Below are positions 2,776 to 41,963 of a DNA stretch of 64,000 bases, piece after piece. Location of the stretch: contig NZ_JAGGOZ010000077.1 of the NCBI RefSeq assembly GCF_018614075.1, positions 16,114 to 80,113 on the forward strand. The letters run 5' to 3'. Position numbers and translations under genes: made by a program. Source of the stretch: Streptomyces sp. ISL-94. Its GTDB lineage: Bacteria > Actinomycetota > Actinomycetes > Streptomycetales > Streptomycetaceae. The notes below the pieces were generated by a model. The model worked only from the letters and a program-made list of their open reading frames with translations. It was not told the DNA's origin and made no database searches. The first letter of the stretch is position 1, and the number at the start of each line of letters is the position of its first letter.

Positions 2776-2936
2776 GGGGGGTCCGGCCGATCAGGGCCGG
2801 ATCAGCCCGGGTCGGCCGGCGCCGTGGATGGCAAGGCGGAGGAGGGAGTCGATGCGGAGCATCGACGACCGACGACAACGCGGCCAGGCGCGGCGCCGAC
2901 CGACCCGGGCCCGGCCATGATCGGCCGGACCCCCCC
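2775..2936. repeat. Long structured repeat element, copy A
   Basis: Nested inverted repeats start on the last base of the dehydrogenase stop codon. The outer arms 2775-2800 and 2911-2936 match at 25 of 26 positions. A second stem pairs 2806-2823 with 2892-2909 (17/18). An inner hairpin pairs 2848-2855 with 2859-2866 (8/8). Between the second stem and the inner hairpin lie two strands, 2824-2842 and 2874-2891, that are nearly identical to those in the element at 57334-57498, while all stem sequences differ. It could act as a transcription barrier between the dehydrogenase and tetR, or be a palindromic mobile repeat. Confidence 0.7.
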
Positions 2937-3117
2937 TGACCCCCGGCCGGGCCAAGAGCCGGATGCGTGGGGAGGGCTCCTCGGGCCCGCCGGACCCTCA
3001 CGGCGGGCAAACCCTCCCGACGAGCACTGTGTGCCCAGTGCCTGCCCTCCCCCGCATCCCTCCCCGTCCCACCCCCCTCAGGCGCGCTCACCCGCGCGAA
3101 TGAAGTACTTTCGCTCT

Positions 3118-3933
3118 ATGTCCCAGCCCGCCAAGACCTCGCCCCGCGCCTCCTCGGCCGCCGACGCCCCGGAGAGCGCGGCCGGCACCCGGGCTGCCGC
3201 TCAGCGGCTCAAGATGCGCCGCGAGCTCGCCGCGGCCGCCATGGAGCTGTTCGCGACCAAGGGGTACGAGGCGACGACGGTCGACGAGATCGCCGCGACC
3301 GCCGGGGTGGCGCGCCGGACCTTCTTCCGGCACTTCCGGTCCAAGGAAGAGGCGATCTTCCCCGACCACGACGACACCCTGACCCGCGCCGAGGCCGTCC
3401 TGGACGTGGCCCCGGCGCACGAGCACCCGCTCGACACGGTGTGCCGGGGGATCAAGGAAGTCATGAAGATGTACGCCGCCTCGCCGGCGGTGTCGGTGGA
3501 GCGCTACCGGCTGACCCGCGAGGTGCCGGCGCTGCGGGAGCGGGAGATCGCCTCGGTGGCCCGGTACGAGCGGCTGTTCACCCGCTACCTGCTGGCCCAC
3601 TTCGACGAGACCGACCACCACGACGGCAACGACGATCCGCTGCTGGCCGAGGTGGCCGCCTCGGCGGTGGTGACCGCCCACAACCACGTGCTGCGGCGCT
3701 GGCTGCGGGCGGGCGGCCAGGGGGACGTGGAGGCGCAGCTGGACCACGCCTTCTCGATCGTCCGCAAGACCTTCGGTACGGGCATCGGCGCGGGCCGCAC
3801 CCTGAACACGGCCGCGCCGGCCGCCCGGGCGGCGGTCCGCACGGAGGGCGAGGTGCTGGTGGCGGTGGCCCGTACGGACGCCCCGCTGGACGAGGTCATG
3901 CGGACCATCGAAGAAGCACTGCGCAACAAGTAG
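3118..3933 (+). CDS. TetR-family transcriptional regulator
   Basis: A 271-residue regulator. Residues about 35-85 form a TetR helix-turn-helix (AATAGVARRTFFRHFRSKEE), followed by an alpha-helical ligand domain with a long, poorly conserved C-terminal tail. It sits between the hydroxyacyl-CoA dehydrogenase and ccr genes, all on the plus strand, so local control of the ethylmalonyl-CoA genes is the natural inference. Candidate operators lie upstream of both flanking genes. ATG 3118 is preferred; an in-frame ATG at 3100 would add six residues. A palindromic AAGTACTT lies at 3103-3110, just before the start. The ligand is not evident; an acyl-CoA is plausible. Confidence 0.88.
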   Translation: MSQPAKTSPRASSAADAPESAAGTRAAAQRLKMRRELAAAAMELFATKGYEATTVDEIAATAGVARRTFFRHFRSKEEAIFPDHDDTLTRAEAVLDVAPAHEHPLDTVCRGIKEVMKMYAASPAVSVERYRLTREVPALREREIASVARYERLFTRYLLAHFDETDHHDGNDDPLLAEVAASAVVTAHNHVLRRWLRAGGQGDVEAQLDHAFSIVRKTFGTGIGAGRTLNTAAPAARAAVRTEGEVLVAVARTDAPLDEVMRTIEEALRNK

Positions 3934-3966
3934 TCGAAAAGCAACACGCGCGACCCTCCTCACACA

Positions 3967-3998
3967 GGCCGCCCCGGAGACCGGGGCGGCCTTTTCTT
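3967..3998 (+). terminator. Rho-independent terminator of tetR
   Basis: GGCCGCCCCGG (3967-3977) and CCGGGGCGGCC (3981-3991) form a perfect 11-bp stem with an AGA loop. It is followed by TTTTCTT. It lies 33 nt after the tetR stop and isolates tetR from ccr. Confidence 0.88.
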
Positions 3999-4032
3999 AT
4001 GCCCGACTTGCCCCTACTCGCGGGTAACTTTG

Positions 4033-4049
4033 ATCGATCATCGCTCATC
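4033..4049. promoter_or_regulatory. Putative operator shared with the dehydrogenase promoter
   Basis: ATCGATCATCGCTCATC matches the reverse complement of the GATCGAT tract at 612-628 at 16 of 17 positions. It lies about 280 nt upstream of the ccr start, beyond the tetR terminator. Confidence 0.4.
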
Positions 4050-4083
4050 TGCGCAGGTCAATAGGCAAATGAGAGAAAGTTTT

Positions 4084-4125
4084 GGCACGCGGTGCCTTGT
4101 CGAGTGACACGGGGTGCCATACGTT
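4084..4125 (+). promoter_or_regulatory. Probable ccr promoter with paired operator-like sites
   Basis: TTGTCG (4097-4102), a 17-nt spacer and TACGTT (4120-4125) form a reasonable promoter about 200 nt before ccr. GGCACGCGGTGCC (4084-4096) and GACACGGGGTGCC (4106-4118) agree at 11 of 13 positions. They are spaced 22 bp apart (two helical turns) and flank the -35 box. This is the geometry expected of a repressor-controlled promoter. Confidence 0.45.
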
Positions 4126-4323
4126 GAATCTCGTCCGGACGTCCCCGCGGTCCACACCCACACGGTGCAGACCGCGCCCCGGATGCCTGCGTCACCAGGC
4201 CCCGCACGCCCCACCACAGGCGCGCCCGCACCACACTCGCCGGACCGACGGCACCCACCACCCGTTCCACGCACCTGCGTATCCCTCAGCGCACCCTCAT
4301 CAGCGCTAGCCGGAGGCTCTACC

Positions 4324-5661
4324 GTGAAGGACATCCTGGACGCGATCCAGTCGCAGGCCGCTACGGCCGCCGACTTCGCGGCCCTGCCGCTCCCCGACTC
4401 GTACCGCGCGATCACCGTGCACAAGGACGAGGCGGAGATGTTCGCCGGGCTCACCACCCGCGAGAAGGACCCGCGCAAGTCCCTGCACCTGGACCAGGTC
4501 CCGGTGCCGGAACTCGGCCCGGGCGAGGCCCTGGTGGCCGTCATGGCCTCCTCGGTCAACTACAACTCCGTGTGGACCTCGATCTTCGAGCCGGTGTCCA
4601 CCTTCAGCTTCCTTGAGCGCTACGGGCGCCTGTCGGAGCTCACCAAGCGCCACGACCTTCCGTACCACATCATCGGCTCCGACCTCGCGGGCGTCGTGCT
4701 GCGCACCGGCCCCGGCGTCAACGCCTGGAAGCCCGGCGACGAGGTCGTCGCGCACTGCCTCTCGGTCGAGCTGGAGTCCTCCGACGGCCACAACGACACG
4801 ATGCTCGACCCCGAGCAGCGCATCTGGGGCTTCGAGACCAACTTCGGCGGCCTGGCGGAGATCGCGCTCGTCAAGTCGAACCAGCTGATGCCGAAGCCCG
4901 ACCACCTGAGCTGGGAGGAGGCCGCCTCCCCCGGCCTGGTGAACTCCACCGCCTACCGCCAGCTGGTCTCGCGCAACGGCGCCGGCATGAAGCAGGGCGA
5001 CAACGTCCTGATCTGGGGCGCCAGCGGCGGCCTCGGCTCCTACGCCACCCAGTTCGCCCTGGCCGGCGGCGCCAACCCCATCTGCGTGGTCTCCAGCCCC
5101 GAGAAGGCGGACATCTGCCGCGCGATGGGCGCCACCGCGGTCATCGACCGCAACGCCGAGGGCTACAAGTTCTGGAAGGACGAGCACACCCAGGACCCGA
5201 AGGAGTGGAAGCGCTTCGGCAAGCGCATCCGCGAGCTGACCGGCGGCGAGGACATCGACATCGTCTTCGAGCACCCGGGCCGCGAGACCTTCGGCGCGAG
5301 CGTCTACGTCACCCGCAAGGGCGGCACCATCACCACCTGCGCCTCGACCTCGGGCTACATGCACGAGTACGACAACCGCTACCTGTGGATGTCGCTCAAG
5401 CGGATCATCGGCTCGCACTTCGCGAACTACCGCGAGGCATGGGAGGCCAACCGCCTGATCTCGAAGGGCAAGATCCACCCCACCCTGTCGAAGGTCTACT
5501 CCCTGGAGGAGACCGGCCAGGCCGCCTACGACGTCCACCGCAACCTCCACCAGGGCAAGGTCGGCGTCCTGGCGCTGGCCCCCGAGGAGGGCCTGGGCGT
5601 CCGCGACCACGAGCTGCGTGCGACGCACCTCGAGGCCATCAACCGCTTCCGCAACGTCTGA
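4324..5661 (+). CDS. ccr: Crotonyl-CoA carboxylase/reductase
   Basis: A 445-residue cytoplasmic enzyme of the medium-chain dehydrogenase/reductase superfamily. It reductively carboxylates crotonyl-CoA with NADPH and CO2 to (2S)-ethylmalonyl-CoA, the key step of the ethylmalonyl-CoA pathway and a source of polyketide extender units. The nucleotide-binding motif WGASGGLGSYATQ lies near residues 233-245. The four residues known to bind CO2 in the Kitasatospora setae enzyme (Asn81, Phe170, Glu171, His365) are all present at the same numbers. The GTG start at 4324 has GGAGG 7 nt upstream and gives the usual family length. It leads an apparent operon running to the acyl-CoA dehydrogenase at 10493. 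Confidence 0.97.
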   Translation: MKDILDAIQSQAATAADFAALPLPDSYRAITVHKDEAEMFAGLTTREKDPRKSLHLDQVPVPELGPGEALVAVMASSVNYNSVWTSIFEPVSTFSFLERYGRLSELTKRHDLPYHIIGSDLAGVVLRTGPGVNAWKPGDEVVAHCLSVELESSDGHNDTMLDPEQRIWGFETNFGGLAEIALVKSNQLMPKPDHLSWEEAASPGLVNSTAYRQLVSRNGAGMKQGDNVLIWGASGGLGSYATQFALAGGANPICVVSSPEKADICRAMGATAVIDRNAEGYKFWKDEHTQDPKEWKRFGKRIRELTGGEDIDIVFEHPGRETFGASVYVTRKGGTITTCASTSGYMHEYDNRYLWMSLKRIIGSHFANYREAWEANRLISKGKIHPTLSKVYSLEETGQAAYDVHRNLHQGKVGVLALAPEEGLGVRDHELRATHLEAINRFRNV

Positions 5662-5691
5662 GAAGCCCAGAGGCCAAAGGGACAGCCTGAG

Positions 5692-7779
5692 ATGACAGAG
5701 CGCCAGAAGGACCGTCCGTGGCTCATGCGGACGTACGCCGGCCACTCCACGGCCGAGGCGTCCAACGAGTTGTACCGCCGCAACCTCGCCAAGGGCCAGA
5801 CCGGCCTGTCGGTCGCGTTCGACCTGCCGACGCAGACCGGCTACGACCCCGACCACATCCTCGCCCGCGGCGAGGTGGGCCGGGTCGGGGTCCCGGTCTC
5901 CCATCTGGGCGACATGCGGCGGCTGTTCCAGGACATACCGCTGGAGCAGATGAACACCTCGATGACGATCAACGCCACCGCCATGTGGCTGCTGGCGCTC
6001 TACCAGGTGGCCGCCGAGGAGCAGGGGGCGGACGTCTCCCAGCTCCAGGGCACCACCCAGAACGACATCGTCAAGGAGTACCTCTCGCGCGGGACGCACG
6101 TCTTCCCGCCCGGGCCGTCCCTCCGCCTGACGACGGACATGATCGCGTACACGGTCAACCACATCCCGAAGTGGAACCCGATCAACATCTGCAGCTACCA
6201 CCTGCAGGAGGCCGGGGCCACCCCGGTCCAGGAGATCTCGTACGCGATGTCCACGGCGATCGCCGTCCTGGACTCGGTGCGCGACTCGGGCCAGGTGCCC
6301 GAGGAGCGCTTCGGCGAGGTGGTCGCCCGTATCTCCTTCTTCGTGAACGCGGGCGTCCGCTTCATCGAGGAGATGTGCAAGATGCGCGCCTTCGGCCGCA
6401 TCTGGGACCAGGTCACCCGCGAGCGCTACGGCATCGAGAACGAAAAGCAGCGCCGCTTCCGCTACGGCGTCCAGGTCAACTCCCTGGGTCTGACCGAGGC
6501 GCAGCCGGAGAACAACGTCCAGCGCATCGTGCTGGAGATGCTGGCGGTCACCCTCTCCAAGGACGCCCGGGCCCGCGCGGTCCAGCTGCCGGCCTGGAAC
6601 GAGGCGCTGGGCCTGCCCCGGCCCTGGGACCAGCAGTGGTCGCTGCGCATCCAGCAGGTCCTGGCGCACGAGAGCGACCTGCTGGAGTACGAGGACATCT
6701 TCGCCGGATCCCACGTCATCGAGGCCAAAGTCGACTCCCTGGTCGCCGACTGCCTGGCCGAGATCGGCCGGATCCAGGAGATGGGCGGGGCGATGGCCGC
6801 CGTCGAGTCCGGGTACCTGAAGTCCCAGCTGGTTTCCTCGCACGCCGAGCGCCGCGCCCGGATCGAGGCCGGCGAGGACAAGATCGTCGGCGTGAACTGC
6901 TTCCAGCAGACGGAGGAGAACCCGCTCACCTCCGACCTGGACGGCGCCATCATGACGGTGGACCCGGCGGTGGAGGCGCTCACCGTCGAGCGCATCGGCC
7001 GCTGGCGGGCCGAGCGGCAGGAGTCCTCGGACCGGCAGGGGAACGGCGATCCCTTCGTCTTCCCCACCACCCAGCAGGCTCTGGAGCGCCTCAAGGAGGC
7101 CGCCGCCGGCACCGAGAACCTGATGGAGGCCACCCTGGAGTGCGCCCGGGCGGGCGTCACCACCGGCGAGTGGTCGAGCGCGCTGCGCGAGGTGTTCGGC
7201 GAGTTCCGCGCCCCGACCGGGGTCTCCTCGGCGCCGGTGGCGGTCACCGCCGAGCCCGGTACGCCGATGCACGAGGTCCGCGAGAAGGTGGCCCGTACGG
7301 CCGACGAGCTCGGCTCGGGCCGGCTGCGGCTGCTGGTCGGCAAGCCGGGCCTGGACGGGCACTCCAACGGCGCGGAGCAGATCGCCGTCCGCGCCCGCGA
7401 CGCCGGCTTCGAGGTGGTCTACCAGGGCATCCGGCTGACGCCCGAGGAGATCTCCTCGGCGGCGCTGGCCGAGGACGTGCACTGCGTGGGACTGTCCATC
7501 CTGTCCGGTTCGCACAGCGCGCTCGTCCCCGACGTGCTGGAACGCCTGCGCCTGGCGGGGGCGGGCGACATCCCCGTCATCGTGGGCGGCATCATTCCGA
7601 ATGCCGACGCGGTGACACTCAAGGCGGCCGGCGTGGCCGCCGTGTTCACCCCCAAGGACTTCGGCATCACGGAGATCATCGGCCGTATCGTCGACGAGAT
7701 CCGCAAGGCCAACAAGCTCGATCCCATCAACAGCGCCGACAACGCTGACGTCGTTGAAAGCACGGAGGTTCCCGCATGA
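5692..7779 (+). CDS. meaA: Ethylmalonyl-CoA mutase (B12-dependent)
   Basis: A 695-residue methylmalonyl-CoA-mutase-family protein. The N-terminal TIM-barrel substrate domain (about 1-510) includes FDLPTQTGYDPDH and NTSMTINATA. The C-terminal cobalamin-binding domain (about 545-680) has the DGHSNG motif with the cobalt-ligating His557. It rearranges ethylmalonyl-CoA to methylsuccinyl-CoA. Position directly between ccr (30 nt away) and the methylmalyl-CoA lyase favours ethylmalonyl-CoA over methylmalonyl-CoA as substrate. Its stop overlaps the next start (ATGA), indicating translational coupling. Confidence 0.94.
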   Translation: MTERQKDRPWLMRTYAGHSTAEASNELYRRNLAKGQTGLSVAFDLPTQTGYDPDHILARGEVGRVGVPVSHLGDMRRLFQDIPLEQMNTSMTINATAMWLLALYQVAAEEQGADVSQLQGTTQNDIVKEYLSRGTHVFPPGPSLRLTTDMIAYTVNHIPKWNPINICSYHLQEAGATPVQEISYAMSTAIAVLDSVRDSGQVPEERFGEVVARISFFVNAGVRFIEEMCKMRAFGRIWDQVTRERYGIENEKQRRFRYGVQVNSLGLTEAQPENNVQRIVLEMLAVTLSKDARARAVQLPAWNEALGLPRPWDQQWSLRIQQVLAHESDLLEYEDIFAGSHVIEAKVDSLVADCLAEIGRIQEMGGAMAAVESGYLKSQLVSSHAERRARIEAGEDKIVGVNCFQQTEENPLTSDLDGAIMTVDPAVEALTVERIGRWRAERQESSDRQGNGDPFVFPTTQQALERLKEAAAGTENLMEATLECARAGVTTGEWSSALREVFGEFRAPTGVSSAPVAVTAEPGTPMHEVREKVARTADELGSGRLRLLVGKPGLDGHSNGAEQIAVRARDAGFEVVYQGIRLTPEEISSAALAEDVHCVGLSILSGSHSALVPDVLERLRLAGAGDIPVIVGGIIPNADAVTLKAAGVAAVFTPKDFGITEIIGRIVDEIRKANKLDPINSADNADVVESTEVPA

Positions 7780-33645: not shown

Positions 33646-35145
33646 TCAGCGGGGCAGGCGGTCGCGCCACATGAGCGCCGTGTACAGCAGCAGGGACGAG
33701 GCCAGTCCCACCGCCCAGCCGTAGTCCGAGAGCGGGCGCAGGAGCGGGATCAGCCCGTCCTCGGGGAAGGGGCCCCGGCCGGGAGCCGAGTGCGAGCCGC
33801 CGATGGCCAGCACGCCGCCGGCGAGGAACACGGCCACCGCCCGCGGGTTCCAGCCGCCCCGGTACCAGTACGGCCCGGCCGCCCGGTAGAGGTCGGGCAG
33901 CGACAGCCGGGTGTGGCGGACGATCCAGTAGTCGGCGATGAGGATGCCCGCCACCGTGCCGAGCAGCCCGCCGACCAGGCCGAGCCAGGTGAAGATGTAC
34001 AGCTCGGGGGTGGAGGTCAGCTTCCACGGCATGATCAGTACGCCGACCACCCCGGTGATCAGCGCCCCCCTGCGGAAGTTGATCAGGCGGGGCGCCAGGT
34101 TGGCCAGGTCGTAGGCCGGGGAGACCACGTTCGCCGCGATGTTCACCGAGATGGTCGCGACGAGCACGGTGACCAGGGCGTAGAGCAGCCCGAAGGCGTT
34201 GTCGGCCTTGGCGACCAGCTCCACCGGGTCCCAGATCGGCGTGCCGTACACCGCCTCGGAGCCGGAGGTGACGAACACCGACAGCAGCGCGAAGAGGGTC
34301 ATCGTCGTCGGCAGCCCCAGGGACTGGCCGAGGATCTGGGAGCGCTGGCCGGCGCCGAAGCGCGTGAAGTCCGGGATGTTGAGCGAGAGGGTCGACCAGA
34401 AGGCGATCATCCCCATCAGCGACGGGAAGAAGACCGGCCAGAAGTCCGCGCCCCAGCCGAGCCGGGACGGCTGGTTCAGCAGCTCGCCGAAGCCGCCGGC
34501 CTTCACCCCGATCCACACCAACAGCGCCAGGGCGCCGACGATGACGAAGGGCGCGGCCCAGTTCTCGAAGCGCCGCAGGGTCTCCATCCCCCGGTAGATG
34601 ATGGCGAGTTCGAGGGCCCAGAAGAGGACGAAGCACAGCCACAGCGTCCAGGGCTGGCCGGCGATCTCCCCCGCGTCCGCCCAGCCGCCGAAGATCTTGC
34701 CGAGCAGGACGAAGATCCCGGACCCGCCGATCCAGGTCTGGATCCCGAACCAGGCGCAGGCCACCGCCGCCCGGATCAGCGCGGCCAGATTGGCCCCGCG
34801 CACCCCGAAGGAGGCCCGCGCCAGCACCGGGAACGGGATCCCGTACTTGGGTCCGGCGTGCCCGGTGAGCAGCATCGGTACCAGCACGATCAGGTTGGCC
34901 AGGGCGATGGTGAAGACGGCCTGTTTCCAGTCCATCCCCAGGGCCACCAGCCCGGAGGCGAGCAGCCAGGAGGGGATGTTGTGCGCCATGCCGACCCACA
35001 GGGCCGTGAAGTTGTACGTCGTCCAGCGCCTGGCCTCGACCGGTACGGGGAGCAGGTCGGTATTGGCGAAGCGGCCGTCGGAGGGAACTTCCCCGGGCGC
35101 GAGCTCGACGCGGTCCCCGGTGTCGCCGATCGTGTGCTCCGGCAT
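33646..35145 (-). CDS. NCS1-family nucleobase/cation symporter
   Basis: A 499-residue membrane protein with about twelve transmembrane helices. Characteristic NCS1 motifs are present: RRWTTYNFTALWVGMAHN, GIPFPVLARASFGVRGAN and SLNIPDFTRF. It should import uracil, thymine, allantoin or a hydantoin. As the last gene of the dihydropyrimidinase operon, a pyrimidine-type substrate is the best guess. Confidence 0.92.
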   Translation of the reverse strand: MPEHTIGDTGDRVELAPGEVPSDGRFANTDLLPVPVEARRWTTYNFTALWVGMAHNIPSWLLASGLVALGMDWKQAVFTIALANLIVLVPMLLTGHAGPKYGIPFPVLARASFGVRGANLAALIRAAVACAWFGIQTWIGGSGIFVLLGKIFGGWADAGEIAGQPWTLWLCFVLFWALELAIIYRGMETLRRFENWAAPFVIVGALALLVWIGVKAGGFGELLNQPSRLGWGADFWPVFFPSLMGMIAFWSTLSLNIPDFTRFGAGQRSQILGQSLGLPTTMTLFALLSVFVTSGSEAVYGTPIWDPVELVAKADNAFGLLYALVTVLVATISVNIAANVVSPAYDLANLAPRLINFRRGALITGVVGVLIMPWKLTSTPELYIFTWLGLVGGLLGTVAGILIADYWIVRHTRLSLPDLYRAAGPYWYRGGWNPRAVAVFLAGGVLAIGGSHSAPGRGPFPEDGLIPLLRPLSDYGWAVGLASSLLLYTALMWRDRLPR

Positions 35146-35174
35146 GCGCGCACGTCCCTTCGGGTCGGGAGGGG

Positions 35175-36176
35175 TCAGGGTCTGAACGCGGGGATGACGT
35201 GCAGGCCGTAGGCGTCGATCGCGGCCTCCCGCGCGTCGTGCATGGCGTAGACGGCGAACTGGTCGACGCCGAGGTCGCGCAGGGCCCGCAGCTTCTCGAT
35301 GTGGGCCTCGACCGGTCCCAGCAGGCAGAAGCGGTCGACGATCTCGTCGGGGACGAAGTCGGTCGACGGGTTGCCTGCGCGGCCGTGGTGGCTGTAGTCG
35401 TAGCCCTGGCGGGACTTGATGTACTCGGTGAGCTCGTCCGGGACCATGGAGGAGTGCTCGCCGTAGCGGCCGACCAGGTCGGCGACGTGGTTGCCGACCA
35501 TGCCGCCGAACCAGCGGCACTGGTCGCGGGCGTGGTCGAGGTCCTCGCTCACGTACGCGGGGGCCGCCACGCAGATGGTGATGTCGGCCGGGTCGCGGCC
35601 GGCCGCCGCCGCGGCCTCCCGGACCGACTTGACCATCCGCTCGGTGAGGTAGAGGTCGGCGAGCTGGAGGATGAACCCGTCCGCCTTCTCGCCGGCGAGC
35701 GCGAGCGCCTTGGGCCCGTACGCCGCCATCCAGACCGGGAGGCGGCCCTCCCGGACCCAGGGGAGGCGGACCGGGTTCCCGTCCACGAGCGCCTCGCGGC
35801 CTTCCGCCAGATCGCGGATGACCCCGATGGCCTCGCCGAGGCGGGCCAGGGTGTTGGGTCTGCGCCCGGCGACCCGCATCGCGGAGTCCCCACGCCCGAT
35901 CCCGCACACGGTGCGGTTGCCGAACATGTCGTTGAGGGTGGCGAAGGTGGAGGCGGTCACCTCCCAGGTGCGGGTGCCCGGGTTGGTGACCATCGGGCCG
36001 ACGTGCAGCTTCCGGGTGTGCTCCAGGATCTGGCTGTAGATGACGAACGGCTCCTGCCACAGCACGGCGGAGTCGAAGGTCCAGCCGTAGCGGAACCCGT
36101 TGCGCTCCGCGCGGCGCATGAGGCTGACGACCTGCGAGGCGGGCGGGTCGGTTTGCAGGACGAGGCCGAAGTCCAT
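35175..36176 (-). CDS. LLM-class flavin/F420-dependent oxidoreductase (TIGR03842-like)
   Basis: A 333-residue luciferase-like monooxygenase/F420-reductase fold protein (MDFGLVLQTDPPASQVV, then HVGPMVTNPGTRTWEVTAST, GIGRGDSAMR, RLPVWMAAYGPKALALAGE). It lies 23 nt downstream of dihydropyrimidinase and 29 nt upstream of the permease, so it is in the pyrimidine catabolism operon. No dihydropyrimidine dehydrogenase gene is in the window, and this is the only redox enzyme in the operon. Whether it reduces the pyrimidine ring or oxidises a product is unknown. Confidence 0.88.
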   Translation of the reverse strand: MDFGLVLQTDPPASQVVSLMRRAERNGFRYGWTFDSAVLWQEPFVIYSQILEHTRKLHVGPMVTNPGTRTWEVTASTFATLNDMFGNRTVCGIGRGDSAMRVAGRRPNTLARLGEAIGVIRDLAEGREALVDGNPVRLPWVREGRLPVWMAAYGPKALALAGEKADGFILQLADLYLTERMVKSVREAAAAAGRDPADITICVAAPAYVSEDLDHARDQCRWFGGMVGNHVADLVGRYGEHSSMVPDELTEYIKSRQGYDYSHHGRAGNPSTDFVPDEIVDRFCLLGPVEAHIEKLRALRDLGVDQFAVYAMHDAREAAIDAYGLHVIPAFRP

Positions 36177-36199
36177 GGCGGGCTGCTCCTTGCGTGCGC

Positions 36200-37600
36200 T
36201 TACAGGTACTGGCAGGTGGAGCGGTGGATGAAGGCGCCGTGCCCGGCGCGGCCGGTGAACTCGCGCCGGTCGATGACGAGTTCACCGCGGGAGAGGACCG
36301 TGTCGACGCGTCCGGTGATCCGCTTGCCCTCGTACGCCGAGTAGTCCACGTTCATGTGGTGCGTCTCGGCGGAGATGACCTGCTCGGCGTGCGGATCGTA
36401 GAGGACGATGTCGGCGTCGGAACCGGGCGCGATGGTGCCCTTGCGGGGGTAGAGGCCGAACATCCGGGCCGGGGTCGCGCAGGCGATCTCGATCCAGCGG
36501 CGGCGGCTGATGTGCCCGTCCAGGACAGCCTGGTGGAGGAGGTCCATCCGGTTCTCCACCCCCGGCAGTCCGTTGGGGATCTTGGAGAAGTCGCCGCGGC
36601 CCAGATCCTTCTGGCCGCGGAAACAGAAGGGGCAGTGGTCGGTGGAGACCACTTGGAGGTCGTTGGTCCGCAGCCCCCGCCACAGCGCCGCCTGGTGTTC
36701 GCGGGGGCGCAGCGGGGTGGAGCAGACGTACTTGGCGCCCTGGAAGTCGGGCTCGGCGAGGTTGTCGGTGGACAGGAAGAGGTACTGCGGGCAGGTCTCC
36801 CCGAAGACGGGCAGGCCCTTGTCGCGGGCGGCGGCCAGCTCGGCCACCGCCTCCTCCGCCGAGACGTGGACGACGTAGAGCGGGGAGCCGGCGACGCGCG
36901 CCAGCTGGATGGCGCGGTGCGTGGCCTCGGCTTCGAGGAGCACCTTGCGGACCTCGCCGTGGTGGCGGGGGTCGGTCTCCCCGCGGGCCAGGGCCTGCTC
37001 GACGAGGACGTCGATCGCGATGCCGTTCTCGGCGTGCATCATGATCAGCCCGCCGTTGGAGGAGGCCCGCTGCATGGCGCGCAGGATCTGCCCGTCGTCG
37101 CTGTAGAACACGCCGGGGTAGGCCATGAACAGCTTGAAGGAGGTGACGCCTTCCCCGACGAGGAGGTCCATCTCCTTCAGAGTGCCCTCGTTGACGTCCG
37201 AGAGGATCATGTGGAAGGCGTAGTCGACGGCGCAGTGGCCGTCGGCCTTGTCGTACCAGGTGTCGAGCCCGGCGCGCAGCGGCTGGCCCACGCTCTGCAC
37301 GGCGAAGTCGACGATGGTGGTGGTGCCGCCCCAGGCGGCGGCCCGGGTTCCCGTCTCGAAGGTGTCCGAGGCGGAGGTGCCGCCGAAGGGGAGCTCCATG
37401 TGGGTGTGCGCGTCGACCCCGCCCGGGATGACGTACTTCCCGCCCGCGTCGATCGTACGGTCGGCCGTCCAGGCCTCGGCGGCGGCCGAGCCGTGCGCGG
37501 CCAAGGCCGCCACGCGGCCGTCCTCGATCAGGACGTCCGCGTGCAGTTCGTCGGCGGCGGTGACGACCAGGCCGCCGCGGATCAGGGTGCGGATGCTCAT
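36200..37600 (-). CDS. hydA: Dihydropyrimidinase (D-hydantoinase)
   Basis: A 466-residue cyclic amidohydrolase. The binuclear zinc site is intact: His65 and His67 (DAHTHME), the carbamylated Lys156 (SFKLFMAYPG), His189, His245 and Asp321 (STDHCPF). It hydrolyses 5,6-dihydrouracil/dihydrothymine to N-carbamoyl-beta-amino acids, which the nitrilase-family enzyme encoded upstream would then deaminate and decarboxylate. Confidence 0.95.
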   Translation of the reverse strand: MSIRTLIRGGLVVTAADELHADVLIEDGRVAALAAHGSAAAEAWTADRTIDAGGKYVIPGGVDAHTHMELPFGGTSASDTFETGTRAAAWGGTTTIVDFAVQSVGQPLRAGLDTWYDKADGHCAVDYAFHMILSDVNEGTLKEMDLLVGEGVTSFKLFMAYPGVFYSDDGQILRAMQRASSNGGLIMMHAENGIAIDVLVEQALARGETDPRHHGEVRKVLLEAEATHRAIQLARVAGSPLYVVHVSAEEAVAELAAARDKGLPVFGETCPQYLFLSTDNLAEPDFQGAKYVCSTPLRPREHQAALWRGLRTNDLQVVSTDHCPFCFRGQKDLGRGDFSKIPNGLPGVENRMDLLHQAVLDGHISRRRWIEIACATPARMFGLYPRKGTIAPGSDADIVLYDPHAEQVISAETHHMNVDYSAYEGKRITGRVDTVLSRGELVIDRREFTGRAGHGAFIHRSTCQYL

Positions 37601-37609
37601 CGGATCCCC

Positions 37610-38905
37610 CTACTGGATGCTGCGGAGCGCCTGTTCGAGGATCTCGGCGCCCTCTTCCGCCTCGGCGACGGTCAGGGAGAGCGGCGGCGCGATGCGCAGC
37701 ACGCTGGTGTCGTACCCGCCGCCCTTGCCGACCAGCAGTCCGCCCGCGCGGGCGGCCTCCAGGACGGCGGCGGCCGCGTCCGGGTCGGCCTGGTCGGTGC
37801 CGGGCCTGGTCAGCTCCAGGCCGGCCATCAGGCCCCGGCCGCGTACCTCCCGTACGGCGGGCGCGTGGGCGGCGATCGCGCGCAGCCGCTCCAGGAGGAG
37901 GCCGCCGACGCGCCGGGCGTTGCCCTGGAGGTCGTGGTCCAGCAGGTAGGCGAGGTTGGCGTTGCCCGCCGCCATGGTGACCGGGGAGCCGCCGAAGGTG
38001 GAGATGGAGTTGGAGTCGAGGCAGTTCATCACCTCCGCGCGGGCGACGACCCCGCCGATGGACATGCCGTTGCCGATGCCCTTGGCGAAGGTGAGGATGT
38101 CCGGCGGGCCGTTCTGGGCGTGGGCCTGCCAGCCCCAGAAGTTGTCGCCCGTACGCCCCCAGCCGGTCTGCACCTCGTCGCTGATCCAGAGGATGCCGTG
38201 GCGGTCCAGGACCTCGCGGAAGGCTCCGTAGAGGCCGTCGGGCGGGGAGGTGAAGCCGCCGACGCCCTGGACGGGCTCGGCGATGAGCGCGGCCGCTCCC
38301 CCGCGGGCCTGGCCGAGGACGTCTTCGAGGTCCGCGACGGCGGCGGCGGTGAAGTCGGCGTCGGAGAGGTGGGCGAAGGGGCCGCGGGTGCGGACGGCGC
38401 CGTGGACGTAGTACGTCTGGAGCGGCGAGAGGCTGGTCGGGGACCAGCCGCGGTTGCCCGTGACGGACACGGTGGAGAAGGACCGGCCGTGGTAGCTGTT
38501 GCGCATCGCCAGGATCTGGTTGGAGCGGCGGTACGCCGTCGCGAGCAGCAGGGCGGTGTCGTTGGCCTCGGTGCCTGAGGTGGTGAAGAAGACCCGGGCG
38601 TCGGGGATGCCGGACAGGGCGGCGATCCGCTCGGCCAGCTCGATCATCGGGCGGTTGAGGTAGAGGGTGGAGGAGTGGATGATCCGTCCGGCCTGTTCGG
38701 AGACGGCCTTGGTGACCTCGGGCAGGGCGTGGGCGGTCATCGTGGTGAGGATGCCGCCGAAGAAGTCGAGGTAGCGGTTGCCGTCGGCGTCCCAGACGTG
38801 GCGGCCCTCGCCGTGGGTCAGCTCGATGGGGCGGTCGTAGTAGAGCGCGAGCCAGTCGGGCAGGACGGAACGGTGGCGGCTGTGCAGGGGGATGGGGTTG
38901 CTCAC
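37610..38905 (-). CDS. Class III aminotransferase (beta-alanine/GABA type)
   Basis: A 431-residue PLP enzyme with TSGTEANDTALLLAT, the ISDEVQTGWGRTG motif and PLP-lysine Lys275 in FAKGIGNGMS. In this operon it should transaminate beta-alanine (from uracil) or 3-aminoisobutyrate (from thymine) to the semialdehyde. The start is GTG 38905, overlapping the nitrilase stop as GTGA. This completes the ring-opening, decarbamoylation and transamination sequence with its neighbours. Confidence 0.92.
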   Translation of the reverse strand: MSNPIPLHSRHRSVLPDWLALYYDRPIELTHGEGRHVWDADGNRYLDFFGGILTTMTAHALPEVTKAVSEQAGRIIHSSTLYLNRPMIELAERIAALSGIPDARVFFTTSGTEANDTALLLATAYRRSNQILAMRNSYHGRSFSTVSVTGNRGWSPTSLSPLQTYYVHGAVRTRGPFAHLSDADFTAAAVADLEDVLGQARGGAAALIAEPVQGVGGFTSPPDGLYGAFREVLDRHGILWISDEVQTGWGRTGDNFWGWQAHAQNGPPDILTFAKGIGNGMSIGGVVARAEVMNCLDSNSISTFGGSPVTMAAGNANLAYLLDHDLQGNARRVGGLLLERLRAIAAHAPAVREVRGRGLMAGLELTRPGTDQADPDAAAAVLEAARAGGLLVGKGGGYDTSVLRIAPPLSLTVAEAEEGAEILEQALRSIQ

Positions 38906-39744
38906 GGTTGTACAAGCCCTCCGTAGGCGTCGGGGCGGCGGTCGCGGTAGAAGGCCCACTGGGTGCGGACTTCCTCGATGAGGCCGAAGTCGAGGTCGCG
39001 GATGAGGAGTTCCTCCTCCTTGTCGCTGGCGACATCGCCCACGAACTTGCCGCGCGGGTCCACGAAGTAGCTGGTGCCGTAGAAGTCGTTGTCGCCGTAC
39101 TCCTCCCGGCCCACGCGGTTGATGGCCGCGACGAAGTACTCGTTGGCCACGGCGGATGCGGGCTGTTCCAGCTGCCACAGGTGCGAGGAGAGGCCGCGGT
39201 GGGTGGCGGACGGGTTGTACACCAGCTGGGCGCCGGCCAGGCCCAGTTGGCGCCATCCCTCGGGGAAGTGGCGGTCGTAGCAGATGTACACGCCGACCCG
39301 GCCGACGGCGGTGTCGAAGACGGGCCAGCCGAGGTTGCCCGGGCGGAAGTAGTACTTCTCCCAGAAGCCCTTGACCTGGGGGATGTGGTGCTTGCGGTAC
39401 TTGCCGAGGTAGCTGCCGTCGGCGTCGATGACGGCGGCGGTGTTGTAGTAGAAACCCTCGCTCTCCCGCTCGAAGACGGGGACGACGACCACCATGCCGG
39501 TCTCGCGGGCGAGGTCCTGCATGCGGTGGACGGTCGGGCCTTCGGGGACGGCCTCGGCCCATCGGTAGTGCTCGGGCTCCTGGACCTGGCAGAAGTAGGG
39601 GGCGTTGAACACCTCCTGGAAGCCGATGATCTTCGCACCCTGGGCGGCGGCCCGGCGGGCGTGCTCCTCGTGCTTGGCGATCATCGACTCGGTGTCTCCG
39701 GTCCAGGTGGCCTGGACCAGCGCGGCGCGGACGACTTGGGCCAT
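38902..39744 (-). CDS. Nitrilase-family beta-ureidopropionase / N-carbamoyl amidohydrolase
   Basis: A 280-residue carbon-nitrogen hydrolase with an intact Glu44-Lys118-Cys155 triad (GFQEVFN, KYRKHHIP, ICYDRHFPE). It cleaves N-carbamoyl-beta-alanine to beta-alanine, CO2 and ammonia. It is the first gene of the minus-strand pyrimidine operon. ATG 39744 is preceded by GAGGAG and is preferred to an in-frame start 15 codons upstream. Confidence 0.94.
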   Translation of the reverse strand: MAQVVRAALVQATWTGDTESMIAKHEEHARRAAAQGAKIIGFQEVFNAPYFCQVQEPEHYRWAEAVPEGPTVHRMQDLARETGMVVVVPVFERESEGFYYNTAAVIDADGSYLGKYRKHHIPQVKGFWEKYYFRPGNLGWPVFDTAVGRVGVYICYDRHFPEGWRQLGLAGAQLVYNPSATHRGLSSHLWQLEQPASAVANEYFVAAINRVGREEYGDNDFYGTSYFVDPRGKFVGDVASDKEEELLIRDLDFGLIEEVRTQWAFYRDRRPDAYGGLVQP

Positions 39745-39778
39745 GAGCTGCTCCTCGCGACGGGCGACGGGAACGCCG

Positions 39779-39820
39779 GTTCTACGCACGTAGACGGTGT
39801 ACGTAGGGAGTAGAACGTAG
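39779..39820. promoter_or_regulatory. Operator-like repeats upstream of the pyrimidine operon
   Basis: GTTCTAC (39779-39785) and GTAGAAC (39810-39816) form a perfect 7-bp inverted repeat. ACGTAG occurs three times at 39788, 39801 and 39815, at 13-14 bp spacing. The element starts 35 nt upstream of the nitrilase start. The rest of the 413-nt gap to 40158 holds a 25-bp direct repeat and no convincing gene. Confidence 0.5.
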
Positions 39821-40879: not shown

Positions 40880-41131
40880 CTAGGCGGGAACGACGGCGCA
40901 GCGCCTCAGCAGCTCGTCCAGGGAGAGCCCGAGCGCCTCGGCGAGGGCCGCGACCGTGAAGAAGGCGGGGGTGGGCGCCCGGCCGGTCTCGATCTTGCGC
41001 AGGGTCTCGGCGGAGAGCCCGGCGCCAGCGGCGACCTCGACCATGCTGCGGGCGCCGCGAGCCTCGCGCAGAAGGGCGCCCAGACGCTCGCCGCGCTCGC
41101 GCTCTTCGGGGGTGAGAGGGGTACGGACCAT
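40880..41131 (-). CDS. XRE-family HTH regulator
   Basis: An 83-residue stand-alone helix-turn-helix protein (RLGALLREARGARSMVEVAAGAGLSAETLRKIETGRAPTP). It is divergent from a methionine aminopeptidase gene, with 64 nt between starts. That gap is unusually AT-rich and contains a perfect 12-bp palindrome, so autoregulation and control of map are likely. Confidence 0.9.
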   Translation of the reverse strand: MVRTPLTPEERERGERLGALLREARGARSMVEVAAGAGLSAETLRKIETGRAPTPAFFTVAALAEALGLSLDELLRRCAVVPA

Positions 41132-41174
41132 GCCCTCATCCTACCCGACACACCAATAAGTATCCCGTTATAGT

Positions 41175-41188
41175 TATACCGGTATAGT
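41175..41188 (+). promoter_or_regulatory. Palindromic operator and leaderless promoter of map
   Basis: TATACCGGTATA (41175-41186) is a perfect palindrome. TATAGT (41183-41188) would be a -10 box ending 7 nt before the map ATG, implying a leaderless transcript. TATAGTTAT is also repeated at 41169 and 41183. This places the repressor site on top of the promoter. Confidence 0.55.
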
Positions 41189-41195
41189 TATTGGC

Positions 41196-41963
41196 ATGGT
41201 GGAACTGAAGACGGACCGACAGATCGACGAGATGCGCGCCGCGGGCCGGGTGGTCGCGCACGCCTTGGCAGCCGTACGGGAGGCCGCGCGCACCGGGGTG
41301 TCCCTGCTGGACCTGGACCGGGTGGCCCACGAGGTGCTGCGGGAGGCCGGCGCGAGCTCTCCCTTCCTGGGCTACCGGCCGCAGTTCGCGCCCGTGCCCT
41401 TTCCCGCCGTGGTGTGCGCTTCGGTCAACGACGCGATCGTGCACGGCATCCCCGACGGGTACCGGCTGCGCGACGGCGACCTGATCAGCATCGACTGCGG
41501 GGCGGAGCTCGGCGGCTGGGTCGGGGACGCGGCGGTGAGCTTCACGGTCGGCCGGCCGCGCCCGGCCGACCTCCGGCTGATCGAGGCCGCCGAGGCGGCC
41601 CTCGCGGCCGGGATCGCCGCCGCCGTGCCCGGCAACAGGATCGGGGACATCGCCCACGCCATCGGCACGGTCGGCCGCGCCGCCGGATACGGCATTCCGG
41701 ACGGCTTCGGCGGCCACGGCGTCGGCCGCGGCATGCACGAGGACCCGGGCGTGCCCAACGAGGGCCGGCCGGGCCGCGGCATGAAGCTGCGCCCCGGCAT
41801 GGTCCTCGCCATCGAGCCGATGCTGATCGCCGGCGGTACGGACGACTACCGGTGCGACGGGGACGGCTGGACCCTGCGCACCCTCGACGGCAGCCGGGCC
41901 GCGCACGCGGAGCACACGGTCGCGATCACCGACGAGGGCCCGAGGGTCCTCACCTCGCCGTAA
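41196..41963 (+). CDS. map: Methionine aminopeptidase, type I
   Basis: A 255-residue metallopeptidase with the five metal ligands Asp100, Asp111, His174, Glu207 and Glu239 and substrate-binding His83. It removes N-terminal methionine co-translationally. It lacks the N-terminal zinc-finger or SH3-binding extension. The XRE partner and operator-covered promoter suggest an inducible accessory copy rather than the housekeeping enzyme, which is usually in the ribosomal-protein/secY region. Confidence 0.95.
   Translation: MVELKTDRQIDEMRAAGRVVAHALAAVREAARTGVSLLDLDRVAHEVLREAGASSPFLGYRPQFAPVPFPAVVCASVNDAIVHGIPDGYRLRDGDLISIDCGAELGGWVGDAAVSFTVGRPRPADLRLIEAAEAALAAGIAAAVPGNRIGDIAHAIGTVGRAAGYGIPDGFGGHGVGRGMHEDPGVPNEGRPGRGMKLRPGMVLAIEPMLIAGGTDDYRCDGDGWTLRTLDGSRAAHAEHTVAITDEGPRVLTSP

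Follow-up and report, generated by a model that had tools for sequence, protein, structure and literature searches.

A divergently encoded XRE-family regulator as the probable dedicated autorepressor of an accessory methionine aminopeptidase in Streptomyces

In the genome of Streptomyces sp. ISL-94, an XRE-family regulator gene and a gene for an accessory methionine aminopeptidase (MetAP) diverge from a short gap filled with operator-like repeats, and our comparison across genomes revealed that the two genes form a real, widespread and apparently undescribed pair. Most probably, the pair is a module in which accessory N-terminal methionine excision is controlled by a dedicated autorepressor. 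Presumably as a dimer, the XRE protein would bind CCGGTAT-N4-ATACCGG sites that cover the −10 region and start of the MetAP gene (map) as well as the upstream part of the XRE promoter, and would repress both map and its own gene. The accessory enzyme would then add to two other MetAPs once the repressor is lost, diluted or inactivated. XRE proteins may act as activators as well, but repression is favoured here because a predicted site lies over the map −10 and start. Methionine excision is usually regarded as constitutive. If our reading is correct, Streptomyces and other actinobacteria adjust their capacity for methionine excision by conserved transcriptional control devoted to a spare MetAP. 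In the accessible parts of the open-licence PMC literature, nothing pointed to the XRE–MetAP pair apart from a gene map of S. erythraea (PMC7435583), and we found no paper on the expression of this accessory MetAP gene. The features of the locus are given below, with positions counted in the window, i.e., the whole stretch of 64,000 nucleotides that was analysed.

40880-41131, minus strand: XRE-family regulator gene, 83 aa, single HTH domain, conserved N-terminal arm MVRTPLTPEE (ORF and Pfam)
41132-41195, unstranded: divergent promoter/operator gap, 64 nt, 45.3% G+C
41138-41143, minus strand: predicted XRE −10 TAGGAT, 6 nt before the XRE ATG, leaderless type
41151-41168, unstranded: predicted operator site 1, CACCAATAAGTATCCCGT, matrix score 13.7-13.8, over the expected XRE −35 region
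41165-41182, unstranded: predicted operator site 2, CCGTTATAGTTATACCGG, matrix score 20.9-21.2, top-scoring of the three
41175-41186, unstranded: 12-mer TATACCGGTATA, overlapping the map −10 TATAGT, at the junction of predicted sites 2 and 3
41179-41196, unstranded: predicted operator site 3, CCGGTATAGTTATTGGCA, matrix score 15.1-15.2, over the map −10 and start
41183-41188, plus strand: predicted map −10 TATAGT, ending 7 nt before the map ATG, leaderless type
41196-41963, plus strand: accessory type I methionine aminopeptidase gene (map), 255 aa (ORF and TIGR00500)

A preliminary description of this DNA had proposed a small XRE repressor divergent from a MetAP over an AT-rich gap, and ORFs, Pfam, TIGR00500 and base composition all agree with this layout. 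Two regions only of the window reach the AT content of the gap over 64 nt; besides the gap itself, this is 4020-4089 upstream of a zinc-binding dehydrogenase ORF, which may hold a regulated promoter. The XRE protein consists of the HTH domain, the arm and a short tail. It scored 43.6 bits with HTH_31 (Pfam gathering score 27) and 37.2 bits with HTH_3 (cut-off 23), which makes it a member of the XRE regulators, and Pfam and NCBIfam profile scans found no sensor domain. We also considered an antitoxin of a type II toxin–antitoxin system and rejected it, since the protein reached only 25.3 bits with the HipB/Y4mF model TIGR03070 (cut-off 71.65) and 20.1 bits with the HI1420-type model TIGR02684 (cut-off 53.7). 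Among solved structures, the putative XRE-family transcriptional regulator 2ofy is a relative (2ofy_A, E 1.8e-37 over profile positions 1-80) that matches the window XRE including its arm, there MVRVPLT. A simulation study handled 2ofy as a dimer, according to the part of its text accessible to us (PMC9861041). The XRE–MetAP pair thus suggests a function for this orphan regulator.

The map product scored 256.7 bits with TIGR00500 against a curated cut-off of 171.35 and hence belongs to the type I methionyl aminopeptidases. In an eight-row alignment including both paralogues from the same genome, the residues D100, D111, H174, E207 and E239, which we take to be the metal ligands, are invariant, as are H83 and H181, presumably the active-site histidines. 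Judged from its sequence, the enzyme looks catalytically intact and is predicted to be active. Two further MetAPs of the genome exceed the TIGR00500 cut-off, so the idea of an extra MetAP holds, with the correction that the window enzyme is the third and not the second; a lack of any other MetAP, which would have spoken against the preliminary description, is excluded. One paralogue, 47% identical to the window MetAP, sits in the order secY-adk-map-infA; the other, 38% identical, carries an N-terminal extension. Both split off from the subfamily of the window MetAP in a 50-row tree (support 93/97), in which XRE-linked and XRE-free members of the subfamily are mixed together.

For the analysis of the gaps, we call class A those pairs whose MetAP is more than 66% identical to the window MetAP. 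Gaps were counted as distinct sequences, which are still related by descent, and the 93 class-A and 34 other gaps, 127 in total, leave out locus L039 and loci L202-L251, which were fetched by operator pattern or coordinates. We also excluded duplicates, pairs encoded on one strand, gaps of ≤20 nt or ≥260 nt, and pairs whose match failed to start at residue 1 of the XRE or within residues 1-4 of the MetAP. Wider sets including the pattern- or coordinate-fetched loci (105, 35 and 140 gaps, respectively) gave the same picture.

Promoter positions are highly constrained in these gaps. A TANNNT motif stands 7 nt ahead of map in 88/93 distinct class-A gaps (shuffled mean 5.8 at 5-8 nt) and 6-7 nt ahead of the XRE start in 124/127 distinct gaps (shuffled mean 8.6); an SD-like motif precedes XRE in 30 of the 127. 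Given the placement of the −10 elements so close before both starts, the two class-A transcripts look leaderless. Outside class A, none of the 34 gaps has TANNNT at 5-8 nt before map, and 33 of them have an SD-like motif there, a motif that is likewise found for map in all five class-A exceptions lacking the −10 at 7 nt. The class-A pairs L079, L091, L102, L172 and L199 have an SD-like motif and no −10 at 7 nt before map, yet retain the operator core; their map probably is not leaderless.

Between the two genes, the window gap holds three imperfect copies of CCGGTAT-N4-ATACCGG stepped by 14 bp, and predicted site 2 differs from this consensus by a single mismatch. The preliminary description had instead singled out the palindrome TATACCGGTATA at the −10 of a leaderless map promoter. 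This palindrome is present as noted and does overlap TATAGT; as the key element, however, it gives way to the N4-centred dyad. The 12-mer core ATACCGGTAT occurs in 75/93 distinct class-A gaps and 3/34 others and is thus far less conserved than GGTAT-N4-ATNSG, which is found in 93/93 and 17/34, respectively, and the 12-mer was hence dismissed as operator unit. With any spacer from 0 to 12 other than 4, the same half-sites were absent from all 93 class-A gaps, and at spacer 4 shuffled class-A gaps gave a mean of 0.13. Sites that stand alone, e.g., CGGTATAAAAATACCG at L089 and L090, also point to the N4-centred dyad as the unit. Outside class A, the complete palindrome GGTAT-N4-ATACC is present in 10 of the 34 gaps and the looser GG[TG]AT-N4-AT in 32, which leaves two without even the latter.

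A symmetric matrix, CCGGTATTATAATACCGG, detects one to four dyad sites in each of the 127 distinct gaps, the same gaps on which it was trained. Neighbouring matrix sites lie 14 bp apart in 131/187 cases, adjacent sites sharing CCGG; this spacing was not used in training, although a neighbour at 14 bp also gains score from the palindromic CCGG. Between gap lengths of 64 and 78 nt, as seen in L008 and L010, the difference is one 14-bp unit, and a comparison of L010 and L093 with the window gap suggests that the array gains and loses whole repeat units.

Of 101 genus genomes, 82 contain the pattern CGGTATN4ATTGG, most of them at a single place, compared with nine matches in 7/101 for the reversed control, and in the Streptomyces sp. 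ISL-94 genome its only occurrence is predicted site 3. Thirty of these places were fetched as loci, of which 23 hold the pair, one MetAP alone and six neither gene. In four genomes (G072, G037, G133 and G034), the sole XRE found lies apart from the operator-bearing MetAP, which suggests that XRE may act in trans. In G023, the MetAP is truncated, yet the operators persist beside an intact XRE. Such trans and decay cases would tie the operator to XRE beyond simple linkage. G168 retains MetAP and operator with no XRE at E≤1e-6, and G028 has MetAP with operators and no adjoining XRE, a partial 42% match lying elsewhere in its genome.

Within the Streptomyces sp. ISL-94 genome, WATACCGGTATW with at most one mismatch has a single place, while its reversed control has two matches per strand. 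CCGGTATN4ATACCGG with up to two mismatches has 22 places against five for the reversed control, an excess that would point to further targets, but about 19 are estimated by chance from base composition; the only other place with at most one mismatch falls inside a predicted ORF. A wider regulon was rejected on these grounds, and our pattern searches, in which the 20 two-mismatch places were read in part, showed no other convincing XRE target in this genome.

The two genes are also inherited together. At E≤1e-8, 280 of the 295 genomes of the genus have XRE, a number that includes G290, where a match over residues 14-82 at 46% probably is another XRE. MetAP was found in 264/295 at E≤1e-75, a threshold that drops some class-B pairs which are present, e.g., L178-L180, L182, L187, L190, L193, L196 and L198. 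At this threshold, MetAP is absent from 13 of the 15 XRE-negative and from 18 of the 280 XRE-positive genomes (Fisher p 1.2e-12, kinship among genomes ignored), and the pair accordingly tends to be lost together. Among 396 phylum genomes, XRE occurs at E≤1e-12 in 23 (7 of 236 genera), 12 of the genus and 11 outside it, and all 11 outside the genus face a MetAP 49-55% identical to that of the window. Shared operators, co-occurrence and co-loss together support a regulator dedicated to the accessory MetAP.

Named loci, the best 80 of at least 573 XRE relatives, give a similar view. Among the matches listed, the nearest named relatives of the window locus are Streptomyces; 74/80 have a divergent MetAP, and the other six show none in the stretch examined. 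L139, L152, L157, L160, L163 and L169 have XRE without MetAP within an 8-kb stretch, and a CGGTAT-N4-AT site is still found upstream of XRE in L139, L152 and L163. At the 80 loci, some with short flanks, genes for a gamma-glutamyltransferase (64/80), a carbon-nitrogen hydrolase (62/80) and an F420-dependent PPOX enzyme (25/80) recur. Members of the MetAP subfamily from other actinobacterial families lacked a recognisable XRE at all 16 XRE-free loci read, and none of these had an operator within 250 nt upstream of MetAP, where three positive controls were all detected; the enzyme hence does not need the repressor. A further pair type within the genus was seen at L200 and L201 (genomes G109 and G121), with identities of 56-64% for XRE and 52-53% for MetAP. 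This type has one full TGGTATAAATATACCGG palindrome, and in the tree its MetAPs join those from another family.

The accessory enzyme could also be a resistant or stress-specific backup with an altered pocket, normally off and switched on when MetAP is inhibited or under some other stress. The two other MetAPs of the genome fit a backup, and so does an insertion of six residues after the GY motif that sets the window MetAP apart from both paralogues in the alignment; a strict insertion pattern matches 153 of 168 fetched relatives and misses 15. Against this stand the standard metal ligands and the near-core occurrence of XRE with its recurring neighbours, and we consider such a backup unlikely. 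In its more specific form, put forward in the preliminary description as an enzyme resistant to a MetAP-targeting natural product, the idea is not supported by our results: a near-core distribution with shared synteny speaks against a cluster-borne resistance enzyme, the neighbours as read are not those of a biosynthetic cluster, and the catalytic residues are like those of the paralogues. From the distribution and the neighbours as read, a self-resistance copy carried by such a cluster was rejected.

Some known systems resemble parts of the module. According to the accessible text of PMC1266368, B. subtilis map/yflG likewise includes a second MetAP, which is non-essential, has an expression level 50- to 100-fold lower than that of the main enzyme and is possibly under a weak repressor. 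The regulator described there is YvoA of the GntR family, with a two-fold effect, and not a divergent neighbour, in contrast to the divergent XRE with its own operator-like array in Streptomyces. For the S. erythraea sace_3599 region, an xre regulator is named together with a gene for methionine aminopeptidase within 10.5 kb; PMC7435583, in its accessible part, concerns a glycosyltransferase and does not discuss orientation or a link of the two genes. In the XRE–metalloprotease pairs of the DdrO/IrrE type, a repressor of the XRE family is likewise linked to a metallopeptidase, and DdrO is a weak match to the window XRE (6rnz, E 2.1e-6). The window pair differs in having an M24 aminopeptidase as its peptidase and a repressor made of one HTH domain; no endoprotease partner was seen.

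The dedicated autorepressor proposed here might in addition be a substrate of the kind of enzyme that it controls. Its near-invariant N-terminus, MVR-x-PLT, is of the MetAP-cleavable type, and among 171 distinct XREs (including L092, a lone XRE-like protein with Ala2) the arm residues M1, V2, R3 and P5 are conserved at 99-100%, on par with the HTH core. Residue 2 is Val in 169/171, the remaining two being G and A, and residue 3 is R in 171/171. The codons of V2 and R3 differ synonymously across XRE genes; selection hence acts on the protein. One could imagine that the repressor reads methionine-excision capacity at its N-terminus: good binding to the operator would require a Val-Arg arm freed of its Met, and unprocessed Met-XRE, accumulating upon shortage of MetAP or deformylase, would release it and let MetAP rise. 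With its PLTxE stretch, the arm also seems to resemble that of lambda cI. E. coli-type MAP cleaves before a P1′ Val in its top tier, as stated in the accessible part of PMC12930335, so that Val2 makes XRE an expected MetAP substrate. On the other hand, Val2 may merely belong to a DNA-contacting arm, 50-70% of proteins are targets of methionine excision anyway (PMC5593965, accessible part), and the MetAPs themselves carry Val2 in 127/167. The Val2 arm permits such a feedback rather than showing it, and we regard it as improbable, more so than a backup role. Were it true, the repressor would serve as a reporter substrate for its own target pathway, and N-terminal methionine excision would be under a transcriptional homeostat.

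That two leaderless genes share an AT-rich promoter by chance while XRE regulates something else is very improbable. Leaderless mRNAs are indeed frequent in Streptomyces and make up 21% of primary TSSs in S. coelicolor (accessible part of PMC4895711), which would fit such a coincidence, but the spacing-specific conservation of the operator across families, the co-loss and the trans cases all stand against it.

Rfam and tRNA scans of the window found nothing. Elsewhere in the window, on the minus strand at 33646-39789, genes for a permease, an LLM-type oxidoreductase, a hydantoinase/dihydropyrimidinase-like protein, an aminotransferase and a carbon-nitrogen hydrolase stand in a row that looks like a reductive pyrimidine/hydantoin degradation cluster; the hydrolase was assigned to PF00795 by a family test, the other genes by eye from their ORFs. 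On the plus strand at 2824-7776, a TetR regulator, a zinc-binding dehydrogenase and a methylmalonyl-CoA-mutase-type protein are encoded in an order that we take to be that of an ethylmalonyl-CoA pathway cluster.
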